From positions 1 to 64,000 of the forward strand of contig CAIOGZ010000071.1 of the NCBI GenBank assembly GCA_903858015.1: a DNA stretch of 64,000 bases, in the 5' to 3' direction. Shown piece after piece: positions 39,833 through 50,011 of this stretch (position 1 is the stretch's first letter; each line of letters begins with the position of its first letter). The position numbers and the translations under genes were made by a program. The notes below the pieces were generated by a model. It searched no databases. It had not been told where the DNA came from and saw only the letters and a program-made list of their open reading frames with translations. Origin of the DNA: an uncultured cyanobacterium (GTDB lineage: Bacteria; Cyanobacteriota; Cyanobacteriia; PCC-6307; Cyanobiaceae).

Positions 39833-42800
39833 TCAGGCCGCAGGCGGCAAACCGACCACCTGGGTGTGGGAGCCACGGGCCTGGGTGACGCCGATCGTGC
39901 GGCCGGAGGCGGCGATCATCGGCCGCCGGTGACTCACCACCAGGAACTGGGCCGCATCGGCCTGGGCGGCGATCAGGCCGGCCAGGCGCTCCACATTGAT
40001 GCCGTCGAGGAAGCTGTCCACCTCGTCGAGGGCATAGAAGGGGGAGGGCCGGAAGCGCTGCAGGGCAAACAGGAAGCTCAAGGCCGTGAGCGATTTCTCG
40101 CCACCCGACATCGCCGCCAGCCGGCGCACCGCCTTGCCCTTGGGGTGGGCCACCAGGGTGAGGCCCCCCTCCAGGGGTTGGTCGGGGTTTTCCAGCTGCA
40201 GGTGGCCTTCGCCATCGGAGAGGCCGGCGAAGATGGTGCGGAAATGGCCGTCGACCGCCCGGAAGGCCTCCATGAAGGCCTCCTGGCGCAGGGTGGCCAC
40301 CGTTTCGATCCGCAACAGCAGTTCTTCCCTTTCCTTGCTGAGCACCTCCAGCCGTTCTTCCAGCTCGGCCAGCCGTGCCTCCAGTTGCTCCAGCTCCTCG
40401 AGGGCCAGCATATTGACCGGTTCGAGGGCTTCCATGCGGCGCTGGAGGCGCTCGAGTTCGCTGCGCAGGCTGTCGAGTCCGGCTTCGCGCAGGACCCCAG
40501 GGATCTCGGGGCGCGGCTCGGGCAGGCCGCGTTCCAGTTGCTCCAGCCGCAGGCCTTCACTGCGTTGTTCCTCCAGCACCGCCTCGATTTCTTCCCCCAG
40601 CCGCTGCAGCTCCCACTGGCGTTGCTGCAGGGCTTGGCGGGCAGCCGCCAATTGGGCTTCGGCCAGATCGCGCTGGCGACGCCGTTCGCCGAAGCGGGCC
40701 GTCAGGTCGCTCTGGCGTGCTTCGAGATCATGGCGTTGGGTTTGATCGGCCTGTTGCTGCTCTTTCCAGGCCTGCCGTTCCGCCACTAGCGCCTGCACGG
40801 CTTCCACCAGTTGCCGTTCCTCCCCCGCCATGGCCTCCAGCTGGCTGGAGAGCCGTTCGCTGGCCAGGGCGCGGTCGCGGCGTTCGGCCTCGAGCTGATC
40901 GCGCTGCTGGCGGGCCTGCCGCAGGGTTTGGTCGGCGGCCTCCAGGTCGGCCTGGAGCCCTTGCCAACGGGCGCTGTCGTCGCCGGCGGCGGCGGCGGCC
41001 TCGGCGGCTTCCAGGGCTGCGATCGCCCGCTGGAGGGGGGCGATGCTGGTGGCGAGCTCCTGCTGCCGGGCCGTGTCAGCGGCGTTGGCCTGGCCCAGCT
41101 GCTCCAGCCGCAGCGTCAGCTGGGTGCGGCGCTGCTGCAGGGGGGTGAGTTGGCGTTCGGCGGCCAATCGTTCCGCTTCCACGGCGGCCTGGCGTTGCTG
41201 GCTGCGCAGGAGCAGCGGCCGGGATTCCTCCAAGCTTCGGCCCAGTTCTGCTTCGCGGCGGCGGCAGGCCAGCAGGCCTTCGCCCAGTTGCAGCAAGCGG
41301 CGGCGCAGGGGTTCGGCCTCGTCTCCTTCCTGGCTGCTGCCGAAACCGAGCTGACCGCTGCGCTGCTGCAGGCTGCCGCCGGTCATGGCGCCGCTCTTCT
41401 CGAGTAGTTCGCCATCGAGGGTCACGGCGCGGCAGCGGCCGAGCTGGCGGCGGGCCTGGTCGAGGTGGTCGAAGACCAGGGTGTCGCCGAAGACATAGCG
41501 GAACACTTCGCCATAGACGGGTTCATGGCGGATCAGATCCACGGCCCGACCGACCAGGCCTGCGGGGCCCGCCCCATGGGGGTTCGCCCCGCTGGGATTC
41601 GCCGCCCGTTGGAAGGCGGCAGCAGCGCTGCTGGAGCCAGGGCCGCCCCGGATGCGGTTGAGCGGCAGCAGGGTGAGGCGGCCAGCCCGGCGACTCTTGA
41701 GCAGCTCGATCGCCCGGGCGGCGATCTGGTCGTCTTCGACCACCACCTGGCCGAGTCGGGCGCCGGCGGCTACCTCCAGGGCCACCCGGTGGCGCTCGTC
41801 CACCTCCCCCAGTTGGGCCACGGGGCCATGGATTCCCTCCAGGCCCGCTTCGAGCAGGAGCCGCAGAGCGCCGGTGCCCCGGCTTTCCTGCAGGGTTTCG
41901 CGGCGGCTGTCGTGGCGAGCGATCTCCCGTTCGAGGTTGGTTTGCTCCTGCTCCAGGCGGGCGCGGGTGCGTTGTTGCAGGGCCAGGGCCTCGGCCTGCT
42001 CCTGCAGCTGCCGTTGCTGGGCGGCCAGGCTTTGCAGCAGGTCGGCCTCCTCGCCCCGCAGGGCCGCCAGTCGGGTTTGGGCTTCGCCACTGCCGCCGGC
42101 CTGCTGGCGTTCCTCAAGCTCCAGCTCCTGGCGCCTGGCTTGGGCCTGGTTCAGCCGTTCTTCCAGCTGGCCCCGTTCCTGCAGCAGCGGGCTGAGCTGC
42201 TGCTGCAGCTCCTGGCGCTGCCGGTCCCGCTGTTTGCGTTGCTCCATCCAGCTGCCGGAACGGTCGGCCACCTCGCCGAGCCGGCGGCGGGAGAGGTCGA
42301 CGGCCGCCTCGGCCTCGTTGCAACGGCGTTCTGCCACCGCCAGGTCGTCGGCGGGGCTGGTGTCCAGGCCCAGGCGCTGGTGGCGCAGCTCGCTCTGGCG
42401 GCGGCCGAGGTCGTCGCGGCGTTGTTGCAGCTTGGTGGCTTCCTCGCGATGGCGTTCGCCCTGGCGGGCCCGTTCCCGTTCGGCTGCCTCGAGGCCCGCC
42501 AGCTGCGCCTGGACCGCCAGTAGCTGGTCTTCGCCCAGGGCTTTTACCTCGGCCTGGAGTTGGTCGAGCCCCTGGGCCGCTTCGGCTACGGCGCGGTCGG
42601 CGATCAAGATGGCCGCCCGTTCCTCGTCTTGGCGTTGCTGCAGGCCAAGCCGACGGTGGCCTAGGGCCTCCAGGCCGCTGCGGGCGGCCTCGAAGGCCAG
42701 CATCTGTTCCTGCTGGCGGCCTAGCAGCAGCCGCTGGCGGAGTTCCTGGTAGGTGCGGGCCTTGCTGCAGTCGCGTTCGAGTTTCTGGCGGTTGGCCAGC

Positions 42801-43456
42801 AGTTCCTGTTCCACGATGCGGCAGCGTTCCTGCCGCTCCTGCACCTCTTCGAGTTTGGAGCGGGTTTGGTCGATGCGGGTATCGAAGAGGGCGACCCCAG
42901 CCAATTCATCGATGATGCCGCGCCGGTCGCGGGCGCCCATCGACACGATGCGGGTGACGTCGCCCTGCATCACCACATTGCTGCCATCGGGGTCGATGCG
43001 CAGGCGGCGCAGCTGGGTCTGGAGCTGTTGGGCGTTGCAGGCCACGCCATCGGCGCTGAAGCTGGTGCTGTAGGTGCCGCCTGGGGCGACCCGGAGCCGT
43101 CGGGTGACGCTCCAATAGCGCTGGCCGGGCTGGATCCAGGGCCCTTCCGGGGCGGCGACAAGGCCATCCTCGGCGTCATCGGGCTGCCAGTCGCCGAGGT
43201 CGAACTGAACGGTCACCGTGGTTTCGGCGGCGCGACCCTCGCGCTGCATGGAGCTGTTGATCAGATCGGGCAGCCGTTCGGCGCGCATGCCGCGGCTGGT
43301 GGCCAGCCCCAGGCAGAAGAGCACGCCATCAAGAATATTGCTCTTGCCGGATCCATTCGGACCCGTTACCACGGTGAAACCGGGCTCGAGCGGGATCGTG
43401 ATCGATCCGCCGAACGACTTGAAATGCTTGAGTTCGACCTGGTTGATGTGAACCAA
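39833..43456 (-). CDS. smc: Chromosome segregation protein SMC
   Basis: 1207-residue condensin ATPase. The N-terminal head starts VHINQVELKHFKSFGG and has Walker A GPNGSGKSN. Two long coiled-coil arms follow, with a flexible hinge around residues 520-680 (GIHGPVAQLGEV, VDLIRHEPVYGEV). The C-terminal head has the signature MSGGEKSLTAL and Walker B FYALDEVDSFLD. It compacts and separates sister chromosomes with ScpA/ScpB, which are not here. The start is the TTG at 43456; it gives the family's M-VHINQ beginning, and no other start is near. The PRC-barrel gene follows in the same operon. Confidence 0.97.
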   Translation of the reverse strand: MVHINQVELKHFKSFGGSITIPLEPGFTVVTGPNGSGKSNILDGVLFCLGLATSRGMRAERLPDLINSSMQREGRAAETTVTVQFDLGDWQPDDAEDGLVAAPEGPWIQPGQRYWSVTRRLRVAPGGTYSTSFSADGVACNAQQLQTQLRRLRIDPDGSNVVMQGDVTRIVSMGARDRRGIIDELAGVALFDTRIDQTRSKLEEVQERQERCRIVEQELLANRQKLERDCSKARTYQELRQRLLLGRQQEQMLAFEAARSGLEALGHRRLGLQQRQDEERAAILIADRAVAEAAQGLDQLQAEVKALGEDQLLAVQAQLAGLEAAERERARQGERHREEATKLQQRRDDLGRRQSELRHQRLGLDTSPADDLAVAERRCNEAEAAVDLSRRRLGEVADRSGSWMEQRKQRDRQRQELQQQLSPLLQERGQLEERLNQAQARRQELELEERQQAGGSGEAQTRLAALRGEEADLLQSLAAQQRQLQEQAEALALQQRTRARLEQEQTNLEREIARHDSRRETLQESRGTGALRLLLEAGLEGIHGPVAQLGEVDERHRVALEVAAGARLGQVVVEDDQIAARAIELLKSRRAGRLTLLPLNRIRGGPGSSSAAAAFQRAANPSGANPHGAGPAGLVGRAVDLIRHEPVYGEVFRYVFGDTLVFDHLDQARRQLGRCRAVTLDGELLEKSGAMTGGSLQQRSGQLGFGSSQEGDEAEPLRRRLLQLGEGLLACRRREAELGRSLEESRPLLLRSQQRQAAVEAERLAAERQLTPLQQRRTQLTLRLEQLGQANAADTARQQELATSIAPLQRAIAALEAAEAAAAAGDDSARWQGLQADLEAADQTLRQARQQRDQLEAERRDRALASERLSSQLEAMAGEERQLVEAVQALVAERQAWKEQQQADQTQRHDLEARQSDLTARFGERRRQRDLAEAQLAAARQALQQRQWELQRLGEEIEAVLEEQRSEGLRLEQLERGLPEPRPEIPGVLREAGLDSLRSELERLQRRMEALEPVNMLALEELEQLEARLAELEERLEVLSKEREELLLRIETVATLRQEAFMEAFRAVDGHFRTIFAGLSDGEGHLQLENPDQPLEGGLTLVAHPKGKAVRRLAAMSGGEKSLTALSFLFALQRFRPSPFYALDEVDSFLDGINVERLAGLIAAQADAAQFLVVSHRRPMIAASGRTIGVTQARGSHTQVVGLPPAA

Positions 43457-43662
43457 ACGGCCCGTGCGCCGGGCTATCGGAATTTAGCGAAACGGCTGAC
43501 GCTGCCAAGGGGGCTGCCTACGCTGGAGCCAGGTGGGCGCCCAGCGCCGGTCACCCCCACCGCAGGCGACGGCTCTCCCCCCTCGCTGCTTCCTTCCGGC
43601 GGATCGCCAGGGCCTTCAAACTGGGCCTGTTCTGCCAGCTTTCCCTAACCCAACTGCCCGTG

Positions 43663-44223
43663 ATGGACCCCCTCAGCGATTCCCCCACCACCAGCGGTGA
43701 CGCCGCCCGGCCGCTGGGCTCGGCAAGCAGCTATGGACATCCTTTCAACCCCAGCGGCAGCAGTGGCGAAGGCCCGAGTGGCAATGGCACCGGTGCCGGC
43801 GGCCTGGAGCTGGAGGCGCCCCCCCTTAGCCAGCTCCAGCTGGCCTTTCGGGAGCGCTTCGAAGCCCTGTTGCCCACCATCCAGCGGGAATGGCCCGAGG
43901 TGGCGCGGCACACCCTGGAGGCCACCCGCGGCAGCTTCGACAACGCTGTGGAGGTGATCAGCCGCCAGACGGGTCTTACCAGCCACGGGGTGAAGCAGCA
44001 GCTCCAGGAGCTGCTGCACAGCACCGGTGAGCAGGCCCACCAGGTGGCGGACACCCTGCGCCCCCTGGAGGACCAACTGGAGCAGCTGCTCGACGACCTC
44101 AACACCACCCTGAGGCCGAAGATCGAGAAGCCTGTGCGGGAGAAGCCGTTGCTGGCGATCGGCATTGCCGCTGGTGTGGGGCTGTTGTTCGGCCTGCTGC
44201 TCTCCGGTCGCCGTTCGGCCTGA
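43663..44223 (+). CDS. DUF883/ElaB-like membrane-anchored helical protein
   Basis: 186 residues: a disordered Gly/Ser-rich start (1-45), then amphipathic helices of the type RERFEALLPTIQREWPEVARHTLEATRG and a Gln/Glu-rich region LQELLHSTGEQAHQV. It ends in a glycine-zipper membrane anchor (REKPLLAIGIAAGVGLLFGLLL followed by RRSA). The last block is typical of ElaB/YqjD/DUF883 proteins, which anchor ribosomes or respond to stress in other bacteria. It precedes a holin-like gene by seven bases. Start: ATG at 43663 (a GTG one codon earlier is possible). Confidence 0.72.
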   Translation: MDPLSDSPTTSGDAARPLGSASSYGHPFNPSGSSGEGPSGNGTGAGGLELEAPPLSQLQLAFRERFEALLPTIQREWPEVARHTLEATRGSFDNAVEVISRQTGLTSHGVKQQLQELLHSTGEQAHQVADTLRPLEDQLEQLLDDLNTTLRPKIEKPVREKPLLAIGIAAGVGLLFGLLLSGRRSA

Positions 44224-44230
44224 GGCGGGC

Positions 44231-44596
44231 ATGGGTCGCTCCACCTTTGGCAAGGTCACCGAGCTGATGTCTTCGGTGATGGATCTGCACGTGAAGATCG
44301 CCCTGCAGGAGGCCAGCCGGGAAAAGCGCCGCCTGATCGGCGGTGCCGTGTTTCTCGGCATGGGACTCACCTTGGCCAGCTTCGCTGGGGTGGCGGCCCA
44401 GTTGGCCCTGGTGCTCTGGGTGCGGCAAGCCTTTGGCTGGGGTTGGTTGGGTTGTGCCCTTGCGGTGGCCGGCATCGATCTGGCCTTTGCAGGCCTGTTC
44501 CTGCGGATCGGGGGCGGCATGCTCAAGGGGCCCTTTCTGCCCGAGACCCGCCTGGGCCTGAGTCGCACCAGCCGGGCCCTGACCGGCCGGTTTTAG
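44231..44596 (+). CDS. Phage holin superfamily 6-like membrane protein
   Basis: 121 residues. After an amphipathic start (KVTELMSSVMDLHVKIALQEAS) two hydrophobic segments (about 35-58 and 65-90) flank a short loop, typical of the Actinobacterial Holin-X/holin_3_6 family, which is chromosomal and not necessarily phage-derived. Together with the upstream DUF883-like gene it resembles the DUF883-YqjE-type pairs of other bacteria, thought to be membrane stress proteins. Start: ATG at 44231; the upstream open part overlaps the preceding gene and is not used. Confidence 0.75.
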   Translation: MGRSTFGKVTELMSSVMDLHVKIALQEASREKRRLIGGAVFLGMGLTLASFAGVAAQLALVLWVRQAFGWGWLGCALAVAGIDLAFAGLFLRIGGGMLKGPFLPETRLGLSRTSRALTGRF

Positions 44597-44625: not shown

Positions 44626-46275
44626 CTAGGGGTTGACCCCCAGCGCCGCCAGGGCATCCTGCTCCACCCATACCGACACCGAGCGCCCAGGGCAGCGCCA
44701 TTCCGCCCAGCCATCGGCGTTGGTTCGGATCGGTTCGCGGATGTGGCCACTGAGGTCGCGGAACAGGGTGTGGGGCTTGCCAACCTCCATCCATTTGTGG
44801 CCTGCATCGCCAGCGCTCATCAGTACCGCCAGGCTGTGCGGGTGATCGGGGCTGCCCAGCCGGGTCCAGCCGATCGTGTGGCCGTGATCCAGGTAGTCAA
44901 TCTGGGCGCCGAAGGCGCAGTGGCTGCGGACCCGTAGGAAGCGATCGATCAGGAAGCGGTGGCTGGGCATGTGGATGGCAATCTCCCGGCCGAAGCGTTT
45001 TTCGCGGTAATCGGCGCCGTAGTAATCGGCATGGAAGATGCAGGGATAGCCCTGGTCGCGAAGCAGGATGACCGCGTAGGCCAGCGGCTTGAACCAGGGC
45101 TCCACCGGCGAATCGAACACCTGCAGCGGCTGGGTGGTGTGGGTGTCGACCAGGGTCACCGCCAGCCCCGGCATGGCTTGCATCAGGGTGCCGTCGAGCA
45201 GAAGGCTCATGTCGTAGTGGCCATTGCTGCAGCTGGCTAGATGGAAATTGAGGTGTAGCGGTGCATCAAAGAGGGCCATCTTGCCGCCGCTGTTGGCGGC
45301 ATACCAGCTGAGGCTGCCGAGGTCGTAGCTCCAGTATTCGCCTACCACGAACAGATTGCGTTGGGCGTAGGCCTCGATATCACTGATCCAGTCGATCAAA
45401 AAGTCGCTGTTGATGTGGTTGATCGCATCGAGGCAAAAGCCATCAACCCCCACCTGGTCCAGCGTCCAGCGACCCCAATGCTTGAGTTCGTCGCGCACCT
45501 CGGGGTGGCTTAGGTTGGGATTGGCGCCCTCCAGATAGTTGGTGTTGCCTTGGTCAAGCGCTACATGGCCATCGAAGTCGCTGCCATGGCTGCGCCATAT
45601 CGCATGGTAATGACTATCGAGATTATTATGATCAACGGCGTCAAAGTGGTACCAGTGCCATTGCATCGTCGAGTAGCGCCCGCCGCGACCATCGAAGCGG
45701 TAGTGGGTCCAGGCCCGAATCTTGCGTTCGTCGCCTAGGGCCTGGCTCGGGTTTTCTGGGGCGTAGGGGGTGGCCAAATAGGTTTCTTCGCCGTCGGCGT
45801 AGAGCTTGTGGTTGAACACCGCATCGGCATACACCTGCAGGCCGGCCTCGTGGCAGGCCTCTACCGCCGCCAGATACTCATCCTTGGTGCCGTACTTGGT
45901 GCGAACCGTGCCCTTTTGGTTGAACTCGCCCAGATCGAACAGGTCGTAGGCAGCGTAGCCGTCATCATTGGGTCCACCGGCCTTATGGGCCGGGGGCAGC
46001 CAGACGGCGGTGATGCCGGCTGCTGCCAGGGCCCTGGCCTCCTGCTTGAGGCGTCGCCAGTGGCCGCCATCCGCCTTCAGATGGGAATGGAACCATTGCA
46101 TCAGCGTGCCGTTCAATTCGGCGGGTTGCAGCGTTTTGCCCTCCCCGATCCTGGCCCCGTGGCTGCCTAGCCAATCCCGCATGATCGCGATAGCTGCGCT
46201 GGCTGTGTCCAGCGCAGGGTCTTGTTCGGCTTTCAGGATGCTTGCTTTGAGCTCGGAGTAGATGCTGCTGCTCAT
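44626..46275 (-). CDS. GH13 alpha-amylase homologue with altered active site
   Basis: 549 residues from the ATG at 46275, no signal peptide, so cytosolic. Strong similarity to subfamily 5 alpha-amylases throughout: WLPPAHKA, YDLFDLGEFNQKGTVRTKYGTK, VYADAVFNHK (region I), VDGFCLDAINHI (region II), LFVVGEYWSYDLGSL (region III), LVDTHTTQP (region IV) and WFKPLAYAVILLRDQGYP. The nucleophile D283 and acid/base E313 are present. The near-invariant Arg two residues before the nucleophile is C281, and the transition-state Asp of region IV (FVDNHD) is T380. Family members cut glycogen or maltodextrins; this one may be inactive or altered. Confidence 0.85.
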   Translation of the reverse strand: MSSSIYSELKASILKAEQDPALDTASAAIAIMRDWLGSHGARIGEGKTLQPAELNGTLMQWFHSHLKADGGHWRRLKQEARALAAAGITAVWLPPAHKAGGPNDDGYAAYDLFDLGEFNQKGTVRTKYGTKDEYLAAVEACHEAGLQVYADAVFNHKLYADGEETYLATPYAPENPSQALGDERKIRAWTHYRFDGRGGRYSTMQWHWYHFDAVDHNNLDSHYHAIWRSHGSDFDGHVALDQGNTNYLEGANPNLSHPEVRDELKHWGRWTLDQVGVDGFCLDAINHINSDFLIDWISDIEAYAQRNLFVVGEYWSYDLGSLSWYAANSGGKMALFDAPLHLNFHLASCSNGHYDMSLLLDGTLMQAMPGLAVTLVDTHTTQPLQVFDSPVEPWFKPLAYAVILLRDQGYPCIFHADYYGADYREKRFGREIAIHMPSHRFLIDRFLRVRSHCAFGAQIDYLDHGHTIGWTRLGSPDHPHSLAVLMSAGDAGHKWMEVGKPHTLFRDLSGHIREPIRTNADGWAEWRCPGRSVSVWVEQDALAALGVNP

Positions 46276-46468
46276 CGGCGCGGCGGAGGTGATTGCTTTG
46301 ATTCTGCCTGCTTGACAATGCAAAAGCTGGCTTCGTTCTGGCCCGTGGTTTGGGCGCGTTGCAGTGGGGGCAAGCCAATCGAGGCTGGAACAGGTGGTTC
46401 CGAGGCTTTGAGTGTGGATTTTCGGATTGATGGGCTGGTTTGAGTTCTTCTGGTTTGAGTTCTAGTTG

Positions 46469-46485
46469 AGCACTGTTTGAGTGCT
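46469..46485. terminator. Short hairpin at the 3' end of the aldo/keto reductase gene
   Basis: AGCACT-GTTTG-AGTGCT, six perfect pairs, overlapping the stop codon of the leftward gene. On the plus strand a T-rich run (ATTTGTTTT) follows, so it is weak as a terminator in either direction. Confidence 0.3.
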
Positions 46486-47725
46486 ATTTGTTTTGGAGTC
46501 GCTGCAGGGTCTGCCCGCCGATGCGCCCCCGCAGGCGCCGCAGCAGGTCCGGGATCTCCTCTGCCCAGGGGCTGTCCCCCAGCACGGAGCGCAACTCGGC
46601 CCCGTCCACACCGTGATCAAGGGCATCGGCATTGGCGCCGGCGAACCAGTGGCCACCTTGGCCCAGCAGCCCATAGCGGGCCCGGCAGAAGCCCTCGAGC
46701 CCATAGGCCTCGAGCAGGTCGTGCAGCCAGAGCAGCACCGGCAGGTTGATCTGGCCTGGGGTGTCCTGCCAAGCGGGCAGTCCCTGCTGCCAGCTGTTGA
46801 TCCAGGCCTCGCCCAGCGCAGCCCGCCGGGCGGCGGCCAGCCTCGCCAGAATTGGGGGCAGCAGATCCCCAGCCTGATTTAGGAGGGCAACGGCCTCGAG
46901 GTGGAGGGCCAGATCCTCAGGCCGAGCGGCGCCGACGCTGATCGTGTGGATGCCTGGTGCGCTGAGGCAGAAAAGATCGTTCACCACGATCGGATGCAGC
47001 GGTGCGCAGAGCTCCAGCAGGCGGGCCGAGGGGGTGTGCAGGTGCCCCCCCTTGTCGGTGGGACTAATCACAAACACCCCCATGTCGTGGGCGGTGGCAG
47101 CCTCGATGGCAGGCCCGTTTTGCTGCTGGATGTAGTACCAGTGGAGGTTCACGTAGTCGAACCGATCGCTGCTGATCGCCGCCAGGATGATCGGTAGGGG
47201 AGCATGGGTGGAGAAGCCGATCGCGCCGATGCGGCCCTGATCGCGCCAGCGCTCGGCCACCTCCAGGCAGCCCCCGGCTTGAAGGGTCTGCTCGAGCAGC
47301 TCGGCATTGTTCACCCCATGGATGGCCAGCAGGTCGAGGCGGCCCCTGGGGTGGTCCAGGCCCAGCCTGGAGAAACTGGTGGCAAGCTCCGCCTCGAAGG
47401 CGAGCGGATCCGCCTGGGGTGGCACCTTGCTTTGCAGGATCCGCTTGGGATCGGCGCTGCGCCCCAGCAGGGGAGCCAGCTGGCGCTCGGAGCTGCCGTA
47501 GTGGCGGGCGGTTTCGATGTGATGCAGGCCGGCGGCCTCGGCGGCCTCCAACAGGGCGCCGAGGTTGGCCTGGCTGGAAGCCTCGATGGCGCTGCTCTCC
47601 AGGTCACTCCAGCTCTGCTGAAACCGCATCCCCCCCAGGGATAGCACCGGCATGGCGAGCTCGGTTCGGCCGAAACGCCGGGTTGGCACGGCGACGGCGG
47701 CCAGCGGGGTAGGGATGGGAGTCAA
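46484..47725 (-). CDS. Aldo/keto reductase, coupled to a ferredoxin gene
   Basis: About 413 residues. AKR fold: PTRRFGRTELAMPVLSLGGMRFQQSW, LHHIETARHYGSSERQL (tyrosine kept, the usual Asp replaced by Glu), ILQSKVPPQ (lysine), DLLAIHGVN (histidine), DQGRIGAIGFSTHAP, FVISPTDKGGHLHTP and a long C-terminal helical domain. The start is set at the TTG at 47725, because TTGA overlaps the ferredoxin stop, a sign of coupling; a GTG at 47689 is the alternative. The tie to a ferredoxin gene suggests that reducing power may come from photosynthetic electron transport rather than NADPH alone. Confidence 0.85.
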   Translation of the reverse strand: MTPIPTPLAAVAVPTRRFGRTELAMPVLSLGGMRFQQSWSDLESSAIEASSQANLGALLEAAEAAGLHHIETARHYGSSERQLAPLLGRSADPKRILQSKVPPQADPLAFEAELATSFSRLGLDHPRGRLDLLAIHGVNNAELLEQTLQAGGCLEVAERWRDQGRIGAIGFSTHAPLPIILAAISSDRFDYVNLHWYYIQQQNGPAIEAATAHDMGVFVISPTDKGGHLHTPSARLLELCAPLHPIVVNDLFCLSAPGIHTISVGAARPEDLALHLEAVALLNQAGDLLPPILARLAAARRAALGEAWINSWQQGLPAWQDTPGQINLPVLLWLHDLLEAYGLEGFCRARYGLLGQGGHWFAGANADALDHGVDGAELRSVLGDSPWAEEIPDLLRRLRGRIGGQTLQRLQNK

Positions 47726-48198
47726 GGTTCGCGGCTTGGAGCGGGGCTGGCCCGGGGCAGGGTGCGCTTCAACCGCACCGGGTTGGGAAGCCCGAGGGGC
47801 AGGATCTCCTGCTGCTGCATCTGCGCTTCGAGCCCCGCCAATTCCCCATAGGGCACCCAGTGGATGCAATCGACTGGACAGGTATCGATCGCCTCCTGGA
47901 TGCGTTCGGTGCTGTCGCCGTCCTGGCGCAGGGCGCGGGAGCGGCCCCAATCTGGCTCCACCACGAAGGTGTTGGTCGCCACATGGGCGCAGTAGCGGCA
48001 GCCGATGCAAGCGGCCTCATCGACCCACACCGCCTGTTGGCGTAACAAACCGCCCAGCAGCGGTTCCTGGCCACTGGGGGGCGGAGCGGGGTCCGGGGCG
48101 ATGCGGAAGGCGAGGGATGGATCGGGGCCCTCTGGAGCCGAAACAAGCCCAGACGCTGCCGTCGCTCCAAGCCTGGACGGGGGGGGCTGTTGAGCCAC
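47722..48198 (-). CDS. [4Fe-4S] ferredoxin-like protein
   Basis: 158 residues. The central domain has one cysteine set for a 4Fe-4S cluster: CIGCRYC (C-x2-C-x2-C) followed much later by CPVDC. Around it are AHVATNTFVVEPDWGRSRALRQDGD and CIHWVPYGEL. The family occurs across cyanobacteria and in plants (4Fe-4S proteins related to DnaJ-associated ferredoxins). The N-terminal 55 residues are Pro/Ala-rich and disordered. It is placed between ycf35 and the aldo/keto reductase gene with tight spacing, so it is probably one operon. Start: ATG at 48198. Confidence 0.88.
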   Translation of the reverse strand: MAQQPPPSRLGATAASGLVSAPEGPDPSLAFRIAPDPAPPPSGQEPLLGGLLRQQAVWVDEAACIGCRYCAHVATNTFVVEPDWGRSRALRQDGDSTERIQEAIDTCPVDCIHWVPYGELAGLEAQMQQQEILPLGLPNPVRLKRTLPRASPAPSREP

Positions 48199-48203
48199 GC
48201 CGC

Positions 48204-48596
48204 TCAGTTGTCCCAGCGGGTGATCACCAGGTCAATGCTGCCATCGCGCTGGGTAGTCTGCTCGCTCACCAGGAAGCCTTCGTCGGCACTGGCCGCCAGG
48301 ATCGTCCGCAGGGCATAACGTTGGTTGAGCTTGGCCAGAAACCGCTCCACCGGGATCGGCTGCTTCCACAGCTCCAGGTCGGCCACCAGCTCGTAACTGC
48401 CATTGGCAGGATTCCAACGGAAACCGATATCGGCGCCATCGGCCTGGGGGATGGCCAGATCGGCTGTGATCGTCTGGCCGCGATAGCCCCGCACCGGATG
48501 GCTGCCTTCGAGCGGGGGATGGCCCAGGTCAATGAGGGCGTCCACCAGGGCTTGGCGATCGCGAAGTTCGGTCCGGACGGTGCTGAAGTGCGACAT
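48204..48596 (-). CDS. ycf35: Ycf35 family protein (DUF1257)
   Basis: 130 residues: starts MSHFSTVRTELRDRQALVDAL, then LIDLG, VRGYRGQTITADLAI, GADIGFRWNPANGSYELVADLE and RTILAASADEGFLVSEQ. Ycf35 is conserved in cyanobacteria and plastids; its function is not established. The start is the ATG at 48596; the longer frame overlaps the upstream DUF2997 gene. It sits five bases before the ferredoxin gene. Confidence 0.93.
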   Translation of the reverse strand: MSHFSTVRTELRDRQALVDALIDLGHPPLEGSHPVRGYRGQTITADLAIPQADGADIGFRWNPANGSYELVADLELWKQPIPVERFLAKLNQRYALRTILAASADEGFLVSEQTTQRDGSIDLVITRWDN

Positions 48597-48649
48597 CGGA
48601 GCGGCTGGGACGCGGCGGGTGAGGTGGGTAAAGCAGAACGGGCCCTGAA

Positions 48650-48868
48650 TCAACCAGCCCCTTGGCTGGCCGCCAGGGATTGGGGGAGGCCGGCGGAAAG
48701 CTCCTCAGCCCGGTAGGCCTCGGCGCTTTCCAGCCGCCGCTGCACCGTGCCCAGGCGGGCTTCGATGCGTTCAGTCAGCTGTTGACAGCTGGGACCAGCC
48801 ACGCCTTCGACCGTCTCCTCAACCCGGCCATCGGGCCGGATGTGAAAGCGGATCGTGCGCTGGGCCAT
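48650..48868 (-). CDS. DUF2997 domain protein
   Basis: 72 residues: MAQRTIRFHIRPDGRVEETVEGVAGPSC, then CQQLTERIEARLGTVQRR and a polar tail. DUF2997 proteins accompany ycf35 and a ferredoxin gene in many cyanobacteria, exactly as here. It is first in a four-gene leftward operon (DUF2997, ycf35, ferredoxin, aldo/keto reductase). The single conserved Cys in GPSCQ could be functional. Start: ATG at 48868. Confidence 0.9.
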   Translation of the reverse strand: MAQRTIRFHIRPDGRVEETVEGVAGPSCQQLTERIEARLGTVQRRLESAEAYRAEELSAGLPQSLAASQGAG

Positions 48869-49004
48869 CCCGACTTGGAAAGGGTTTCACCGATCTTAAC
48901 CGGGTTTGGACCGGACGGTGTCGCATGAAGCCTTGGCTTGAAGCCGCCGCCCGATCGTCGTCAACCCCAGAAACCTCGATCACAGACAACCTCAATCACA
49001 GAAA

Positions 49005-49061
49005 CCTGCAGCGCAGGCACCTGCAGCGCAGGCACCAGCAGCGCAGGCACCAGCAGCGGCG
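49005..49061. repeat. 15-bp tandem repeats
   Basis: CCTGCAGCGCAGGCA at 49005-49019 and 49020-49034, CCAGCAGCGCAGGCA at 49035-49049, and a partial fourth unit. Just before lie two 16-bp imperfect repeats of AACCTC(G/A)ATCACAGA (48972-49003). All lie between the DUF2997 operon promoter and the HEAT-repeat gene end. Confidence 0.85.
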
Positions 49062-49068
49062 CAGCCGC

Positions 49069-49881
49069 TCAGCTGATCAGCCCTTCATCCACCAGGGTTT
49101 GGAGTCGGTCGAGTACATCCGGTTGCTCCAACTGCTCCAGGGCTAGCCTCGCCTCATCCCGCACCGTCGGGTCGCCATCGTGCAGCAGGGTGTGCAACAG
49201 GGCCTCCACCACCGTCTGCTGGCGGGGCTCCACCAGGTCGGGGTAGAGGCGACCCAGCGACCAGGCGCTGTTGCTGCGTACGGCGGGCTCGCTGTCGATC
49301 TGGAGCGTCTGCAGTAACTGGGCGGCGGCTGGATCGGCCTTGGCCGCTCCGGTGGCGCCGGCATCGGCGAGGGAACTGGCCGCCCAGAGTCTCACCGCAG
49401 CCACATCGAGCTGCAGGGAGCGGATCAGCGGGTTGAGGATTGGCGCATCGGGGTAGTTGCCCAGGCTCCAGGCCACGGCCTTGCGCACGTAGCCGTTGTC
49501 ATCGCAGGCCAGCAGGGCCAACAGCGGCTCCACCGCCATCGGGTTGGGGTTGCGGCCCAGGGCGTAGACGGCGCTCATCCGTACAACAGGACAGGCCGCC
49601 TGCAGCAGGGGCAGCAGCAGCGGGATGGCGCGGGGATCGCGGTGCTCGCAGAAGATGCGCAGTCCCTGCATGCGTTGCGCTTGATCGCCGCGCAGCAGCT
49701 CCAGGCCTTGGTCGCATTCGGCCGCTCCATCCAGCTCGGCGGCTTCCAACGCCGCAATCTCATCAAGGGGATCGCCGAGCAGTTCGGCCGCCAACTCCCG
49801 GGCCAGCACCTCAGGATCGAGGGCCAGCTCCGCCGGACTGTCGGGAAAGGGCTCAGGCAGGGGCAGGGCCGCGTCGTTCAT
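49069..49881 (-). CDS. HEAT-repeat protein (phycobilin lyase-like)
   Basis: 270 residues, all alpha. After an acidic start (residues 1-60) come repeated HEAT units such as DPRAIPLLLPLLQAACPVVRMSAVYALGRN, PMAVEPLLALLACDDNGYVRKAVAWSLGNY and PAVRSNSAWSLGRL. The layout resembles the CpcE/NblB class, which attach or detach bilins from phycobiliproteins, but also generic scaffolds. No nearby phycobiliprotein gene supports a specific role. Start: ATG at 49881. Confidence 0.82.
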   Translation of the reverse strand: MNDAALPLPEPFPDSPAELALDPEVLARELAAELLGDPLDEIAALEAAELDGAAECDQGLELLRGDQAQRMQGLRIFCEHRDPRAIPLLLPLLQAACPVVRMSAVYALGRNPNPMAVEPLLALLACDDNGYVRKAVAWSLGNYPDAPILNPLIRSLQLDVAAVRLWAASSLADAGATGAAKADPAAAQLLQTLQIDSEPAVRSNSAWSLGRLYPDLVEPRQQTVVEALLHTLLHDGDPTVRDEARLALEQLEQPDVLDRLQTLVDEGLIS

Positions 49882-50011
49882 GGGGCGCTCGACCTGGGGA
49901 GATCGTAGAAGTCTGCGGGGCGACGCCTGCGGGGCAGGCCAGGCCCCAGCCGATCGGCCCGGCCCAGGCAAGTCAGCCCACCGATCGGCGGCCGAGCGGG
50001 ACGCCGCCCCG

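Follow-up and report, generated by a model that had tools for sequence, protein, structure and literature searches.

Active-site replacements in a cyanobacterial GH13_5 alpha-amylase homologue point to loss of catalysis on the lineage of one species

The amylase gene described here, found in a 64,000-nucleotide stretch of DNA from an uncultured cyanobacterium (the window), has an open reading frame and encodes a full-length member of glycoside hydrolase family 13 subfamily 5 (GH13_5) in which residues central to catalysis have been replaced. Loss of catalysis is well supported by the pattern of these replacements. The account we favour, with moderate confidence, is that of a dispensable amylase that lost catalysis on the lineage of one species and whose gene is on its way out. 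Because the protein, P0001, passes its family cut-off, automatic annotation would name the gene an alpha-amylase, and glycogen models of this species would very probably count an enzyme that does not work.

The gene reads from an ATG at 46275 to a stop codon ending at 44626, with 549 codons and no internal stop. The sequence-only reading of this DNA had taken the product for a full-length homologue of subfamily 5 amylases, and the family models bear this out: NCBIfam NF006969 (GH13_5/PRK09441) matches over the full length with 592 bits against a cut-off of 382, and Pfam PF00128 gives 51.8 bits. The best solved relatives in a sequence search are likewise GH13_5-type amylases (E ~1e-145, residues 52-541), and the 18 top-ranking chains in the structure search are 42-48% identical to P0001. 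By tree and gene order, P0001 is the orthologue of an ordinary GH13_5 alpha-amylase. Residues 1-50 (window 46126 to 46275) are predicted to form a two-helix N-terminal extension preceding the GH13 domain; this extension has no Pfam match, and it is widely shared, many matches also starting at residues 1-8.

In enzymes of this family the region II arginine positions the nucleophile, and the metal site lies beside the cleft. With respect to the catalytic triad of Asp, Glu and Asp, whose chemistry in GH13 is described in PMC11239784 and PMC8537225, P0001 has D283 and E313, and its second aspartate is replaced by T380. Two residues ahead of the nucleophile, in place of the arginine, stands C281. 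Both replacements had been read by eye and both hold: region II reads VDGFCLDAINH, with TGC at codon 281, region IV reads LVDTHTTQP, with ACC at codon 380, and orthologues have Arg and Asp at these positions in every row. In the alignment with 1hvx, C281 and T380 lie opposite its Arg 232 and Asp 331 (chain-sequence positions, our count). The further claim that the rest of the protein is intact proved wrong, since K286N, N378T, W64S, Y65H, D246N and D252N are also present and 14 of 146 invariant positions are changed. The positions of W64 and Y65 (BLA W13 and Y14) we take to be those of cleft residues. P0001 also has P176 for Arg (Arg in 106 of 106 rows with data), F387 for Leu (Leu in 107/107) and E249 where orthologues have Met (105/107; Leu in the other two). 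At looser positions it carries G99A (Ala in 9 of 106 rows) and E241D (Glu in 96 of 107). D283, H287, E313, H379, H156 and N155 are retained (Table 1).

Table 1. Features of the window discussed in the text, with residue numbers of P0001 and corresponding BLA numbers
Feature	Position	Strand	Evidence
GH13_5 alpha-amylase homologue P0001, 549 aa	44626..46275	minus	ORF, family-model and structure-search matches
Codons 64-65, Ser-His replacing Trp-Tyr (BLA W13, Y14)	46081..46086	minus	W and Y in 106/106 rows with data
Codon 246, Asn replacing metal-ligand Asp (BLA D194)	45538..45540	minus	D in 107/107 rows; ligand as listed in PMC12735216
Codons 252-253, Asn-Pro replacing Asp-Leu (BLA D200, I201)	45517..45522	minus	D in 106 and N in 1, L in 106 and I in 1 of 107 rows; ligands as listed in PMC12735216
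Codon 281 (TGC), Cys replacing region II Arg (BLA R229)	45433..45435	minus	R in 107/107 orthologue rows
Codon 283, catalytic nucleophile Asp, kept (BLA D231)	45427..45429	minus	D in 107/107 rows and query
Codon 286, Asn replacing region II Lys (BLA K234)	45418..45420	minus	K in 107/107 rows
Codon 313, acid/base Glu, kept (BLA E261)	45337..45339	minus	E in 107/107 rows and query
Codon 378, Thr replacing region IV Asn (BLA N326)	45142..45144	minus	N in 107/107 rows
Codon 380 (ACC), Thr replacing region IV Asp, transition-state stabiliser (BLA D328)	45136..45138	minus	D in 107/107 orthologue rows
Gap holding rearrangement breakpoint	46276..46483		DNA comparison with two nearest relatives
Aldo/keto reductase gene, new upstream neighbour	46484..47674	minus	homologue apart from amylase in 5/5 relatives checked
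Holin-superfamily-III-like protein, shared downstream neighbour	44165..44596	plus	
DUF883 C-terminal-match protein, shared downstream neighbour	43660..44223	plus	
SMC-like protein (named by eye), shared neighbour, selection control	39833..43456	minus	

The metal site is affected as well. D194, D200 and I201 of the B. licheniformis/paralicheniformis enzymes are listed among the residues that bind a Ca-Na-Ca triad (PMC12735216). At this A/B interface P0001 keeps N155 and H287 and has D246N, D252N and L253P, leaving the ligand set incomplete; the remaining ligand positions are variable across the family too.

These replacements were found in one genome. We aligned 126 orthologue rows besides the query and dropped those with more than 200 gaps over residues 212-539 or repeating another row over that part; the query's own copies, a distant paralogue (L115) and a broken second copy (L152) were excluded at the outset. 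The comparison set has one genome per species. R281, D283, K286, H287, E313, N378, H379, D380 and L387 are all present in each of the 107 distinct rows that resulted. It had been proposed that orthologues be aligned to see whether C281 and T380 are conserved; they are conserved in none (0/107 rows). Over the 146 invariant family columns (45 other rows, 44 with data per column, two rows being the two parts of a single gene), 14 are changed in the query. For each of the other rows the figure, taken over its own columns, is 0-4, except for L151, a 50%-identical row with an intact active site, where it is 15. Of the sequences set aside, L115 (G015:C2) is a GH13_5-like protein, 33% identical, with region IV reading NHDYQ, in a member of the genus that also has a normal orthologue. 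L152 (G088, C14:35500-37600) has stops and a frame change, its pieces being 59-68% identical to the query, and sits ~1.2 kb behind an intact copy in the same genome (L138): a duplicate in decay.

The closest orthologues come from G007 (74% identical) and from two contig pieces of G022 (75% and 70%), which join the query in the tree with support of 100/99. Ranked by the SMC-like protein, the nearest relatives are again these two (84% and 83%, the next one 77%). Regions II and IV are intact in G007 and in the G022 piece that spans them. Having two close, intact-looking relatives makes this a clean case either for loss of an active site preceding loss of the frame, or for a pseudoenzyme at birth.

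A DNA search for the pattern D-G-[FY]-C-x-D-A matched 17 of 400 family genomes, one of them the query; none of the other 16 is among the 48 genomes, query included, that have an amylase match at E up to 1e-60. At the one inspected locus of these 16 (L118), the match to Cys before the nucleophile fell outside both open reading frames of at least 200 aa. Internal stops in the matches of G213 and G122 were taken as natural ends read through. In the paper collection searched, queries on GH13_5 pseudoenzymes and on the invariant arginine returned no match, and one on cyanobacteria and alpha-amylase returned nothing related.

The surroundings of the gene have changed on the same lineage. Of the 18 genomic contexts compared (L006-L023), all but L015 have sufficient sequence upstream of the amylase. 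In 12 of these 17 the gene immediately upstream, in the same orientation, encodes an rlmL-like methyltransferase; in L018 such a gene is 2.3 kb away on the upstream side. The two small downstream genes and the SMC-like gene follow in the available sequence of 9 of the 17 contexts, immediately in L006, L008, L011 and L017 and after some kilobases in the rest; at the ends of the G022 contigs the amylase has these neighbours on either side. In the query genome the rlmL-like gene is on another contig, beside an ABC-transporter ATPase-like gene (named by eye), with no amylase remnant in the 10 kb examined there, and in G007 the aldo/keto reductase gene is followed by an rsmG-like gene (also named by eye). 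A rearrangement on the query lineage therefore parted the amylase from the upstream neighbour of its nearest relatives. DNA similarity between the query and G007 runs from the end of the SMC-like gene to 46263, just inside the amylase start. The 208-nt gap beyond shows no significant match with what lies upstream of the gene in G007 or G022, its last ~15 nt looking alike by eye, and the G007 and G022 upstream regions are 87% identical to each other over 87 columns, some 60 upstream of the start. The rearrangement may have cut the promoter. By itself it does not explain the loss, because four contexts in which the rlmL-like gene was not found (L010, L020, L021, L022) keep intact amylase sites. 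The genes now upstream (window 46484-49884), for an aldo/keto reductase and for ferredoxin-like, DUF1257 and HEAT-repeat proteins, all lie on one strand. This block stays together in 5 of 5 relatives checked and adjoins the amylase only in the query.

Codon models (18 taxa, our own codon code) were fitted to examine selection on the query branch. A separate foreground omega improved lnL from -14841.18 with one omega to -14838.18 (2 delta lnL 6.0), with omega at 0.158 on the query branch against 0.100 in the background. Fixing omega at 1 on the query branch was 33 lnL units worse, so neutrality over the whole branch is rejected. RELAX-type models (three site classes, background branch lengths held in proportion) gave K of 0.53, a gain of 21.6 lnL units (2 delta lnL 43). 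A late, uniformly neutral phase covering 5.9% of the branch gained 22.3, and release of 13.8% of sites over the whole branch gained 31.7, the best result for any one-parameter model that we fitted. On its own, a uniform neutral tail (-14178.9) is inferior to release of ~14% of sites (-14169.5), and a 2.3% tail added to control-level release (q 0.07) reaches -14170.3, about equal to site release alone. Since this combination fits as well as site release, a partial release and a recent total one are about equally compatible with the data. A neutral tail of 5.9% predicts 1.3 nonsense changes, and the whole frame is mildly against it.

Control branches L134, L135, L104 and L136 (values in that order) show how much of this is ordinary. 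Their RELAX gains were 2.9, 3.5, 0.5 and 9.4, with K of 0.80, 0.74, 1.10 and 1.58; neutral-phase gains were 0, 7.3, 0 and 0, with a tail of 3.7% in L135; and site-release gains were 8.0, 12.8, 0 and 0, with q of 0.05, 0.07, 0 and 0. Some heterotachy is normal, and the query branch is the extreme among the five. The SMC-like gene (14 taxa), the sole gene used as a control on the query branch, had omega of 0.088 against 0.090 and K of 1.05 with a gain of 0.2; site release there amounted to q of 0.01 with a gain of 2.6, and there was no neutral phase. The relaxation seen in the amylase is absent from this neighbour. Overall acceleration was considered and rejected: the relative-rate count for the amylase is 63:35 (against L087, outgroup L088), yet the SMC-like gene is skewed likewise (31:13, outgroup L007), and plain rate asymmetry therefore proves nothing.

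Changes at conserved positions set the query apart from its sister. Among 267 sites invariant in 15 outgroup rows, 26 derived changes fall in the query and 2 in the sister; among 281 variable sites the counts are 25 and 19. Under the slightly stricter invariance rule of the loop analysis (26 of 260 sites changed), 19 of the 26 changed sites lie in loops of the predicted model, against 97 of the 234 unchanged (p 0.003). Core-like sites, hydrophobic and in a helix or strand of the model, changed at 2 of 61 against 24 of 199 others (p 0.051). In six control rows the loop-to-structured counts were 5:5 (L134), 6:9 (L135), 0:0 (L104), 0:2 (L136), 3:0 (L090) and 4:1 (L133), so that two of the six lean toward loops too, with few changes. 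The loop bias hints that the predicted fold is still being maintained. It counts against uniform decay, which would not give it.

Release confined to the active site was not sustained. A zone drawn post hoc gave q of 0.43 against 0.067 and a gain of 13.5 lnL units, which on refitting became 10.9 when residues 281 and 380 were omitted and 9.0 when 286 and 378 were omitted too. In conserved regions I-VII, whose boundaries we set ourselves following that scheme, q was 0.21 against 0.115 and the gain only 0.94, with 0.25 after removal of residues 281 and 380 and 0.00 after removal of all four. We do not rely on the strong result, because its zone was chosen after the changes had been seen and regions I-VII are negative. 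Controls L134 and L135 show weaker release in these regions than in the remainder of the protein (q 0.002 and 0.018 against 0.070 and 0.090), which is not so in the query. Clustering of the 14 sites along the sequence gave p values of 0.035, 0.008, 0.017 and 0.129 at four window sizes.

The predicted structure of P0001 has pLDDT of 86.2 and pTM of 0.89 (pLDDT 87.9 for an intact orthologue), and it superposes on the 18 best GH13_5 chains with TM-scores, by target length, of 0.94-0.95; the predicted architecture is a (beta/alpha)8 barrel that includes domains B and C. The metal loop is modelled with low confidence, but this was discarded as a diagnostic because the intact orthologue's model is low there too; the two models differ in confidence in the region IV loop alone, with block means of 48 and 72 (numberings offset by 3).

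Relatives appear able to do without this enzyme. Of 42 genus genomes, 15 yielded no amylase orthologue (28 were tallied as matching at E 1e-3, but the G034 match has E 1.3e-4 and covers only residues 68-157), and completeness is 90% or more in 12 of these 15. In an SMC tree (FastTree, 14 genomes, support values not shown), the genomes grouping closest to the clade that the query forms with G007 and G022 are G034, G025, G028 (64% complete) and G030, all without the amylase. The query genome has a GlgB-type branching enzyme above its cut-off and a GlgX-like debranching homologue at 593 bits, cut-off 641, and a search up to E 1 gave no further GH13_5 match in it. A further GH13 protein of 625 aa in that genome (L001:997-2874, G000:C18) has an intact-looking motif, VDGFRFD, and scores over the Pfam cut-off and over no NCBIfam cut-off.

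As we picture the favoured course of events, the amylase would have become dispensable in this clade, where other glycogen enzymes remain and several relatives lack the gene. The protein would still fold into a (beta/alpha)8 barrel and hydrolyse little or nothing, because it lacks the arginine that holds the nucleophile, the stabilising aspartate and some of the metal site next to the cleft. The gene would now be under loss with its frame still unbroken. The points against pure decay are that there is no stop or frameshift, that omega on the branch is 0.16 and that the lost invariant sites favour loops.

These same points lend weight to a clearly less probable alternative, a retained pseudoenzyme, in which catalysis was dropped and the folded protein kept for binding or regulation, as in non-enzymatic members of GH13. 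The sequence-only reading had suggested such a protein. Its part concerning catalysis is supported by the residues lost; the circumstance it had named as telling against it was also found, orthologues carrying Arg and Asp in 107 of 107 rows and selection being relaxed on this branch (K 0.53 against 1.05 for the SMC-like gene). A retained, folded, non-catalytic protein nevertheless keeps some probability, given the open frame, an omega of 0.16 rather than 1 and the loop-ward losses. The site-switch model (14% released, the rest constrained) fits best of the one-parameter models, core-like sites are largely spared, and the predicted model (pLDDT 86, TM-score 0.94-0.95) suggests catalytic residues lost with the fold kept, the nucleophile and acid/base being retained. 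Against retention, the dead state is not conserved between species (0/107 orthologue rows), K286 is missing along with W64 and Y65, no orthologue turned up in 15 of the 42 genomes of the genus, and released sites are not enriched in regions I-VII. 4F2hc and rBAT are conserved transporter subunits of animals. Both are described as having the GH13 fold without catalysis, 4F2hc lacking all three catalytic residues (PMC8537225); unlike them, the query state was found in one bacterial genome and has no known partner. A very young, single-copy GH13 pseudoenzyme, with active-site and metal loops released, the barrel kept and a new context behind the aldo/keto reductase gene, is a description we would offer only tentatively.

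Altered or reduced activity, in which the nucleophile and acid/base are kept and another residue stands in for the stabilising aspartate, is unlikely. P0001 resembles GH13_5 alpha-amylases (Bacillus licheniformis/Geobacillus type and cyanobacterial PRK09441 homologues) in full-length homology, predicted fold, nucleophile and acid/base, and it keeps D283, E313, H156 and H379. It differs from them in replacing the region II Arg and Lys, the region IV Asn and Asp, D194/D200/I201 and W13/Y14 (BLA numbers). The joint loss of the Arg, the Asp, the adjacent Asn, the Lys, W64 and Y65 and of two metal ligands argues against residual function, and Thr is no obvious stand-in for a charged residue. The precedent is BmaN1, a natural bacterial amylase in which, as in the query, the region IV Asp is replaced, and which is reported active with His in its place and with a Lys-Asp change, in which Lys takes the nucleophile position and the nucleophile is displaced (PMC5347038). 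Because BmaN1 lacks the canonical triad and is reported active, it cautions against calling every such protein dead. As described there, its pattern is common to a sequence group, whereas the query, with D283, C281, T380 and further losses in the cleft and metal site, falls outside the BmaN1 type (D283, T380), and its pattern was found in no group and in one genome.

A sequencing, assembly or binning error, which a 100-contig draft might invite, is highly improbable given 14 separate altered invariant positions with the frame kept, an Asp-to-Thr change that takes at least two base changes in the genetic code, a downstream context as in the two nearest relatives and a contamination estimate of 0.74%.

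Elsewhere in the family, the amylases at L146, L147, L148 and L149 carry an RRRFL twin-arginine-like leader, in frame as extracted, and may be exported, unlike those of the query's group.
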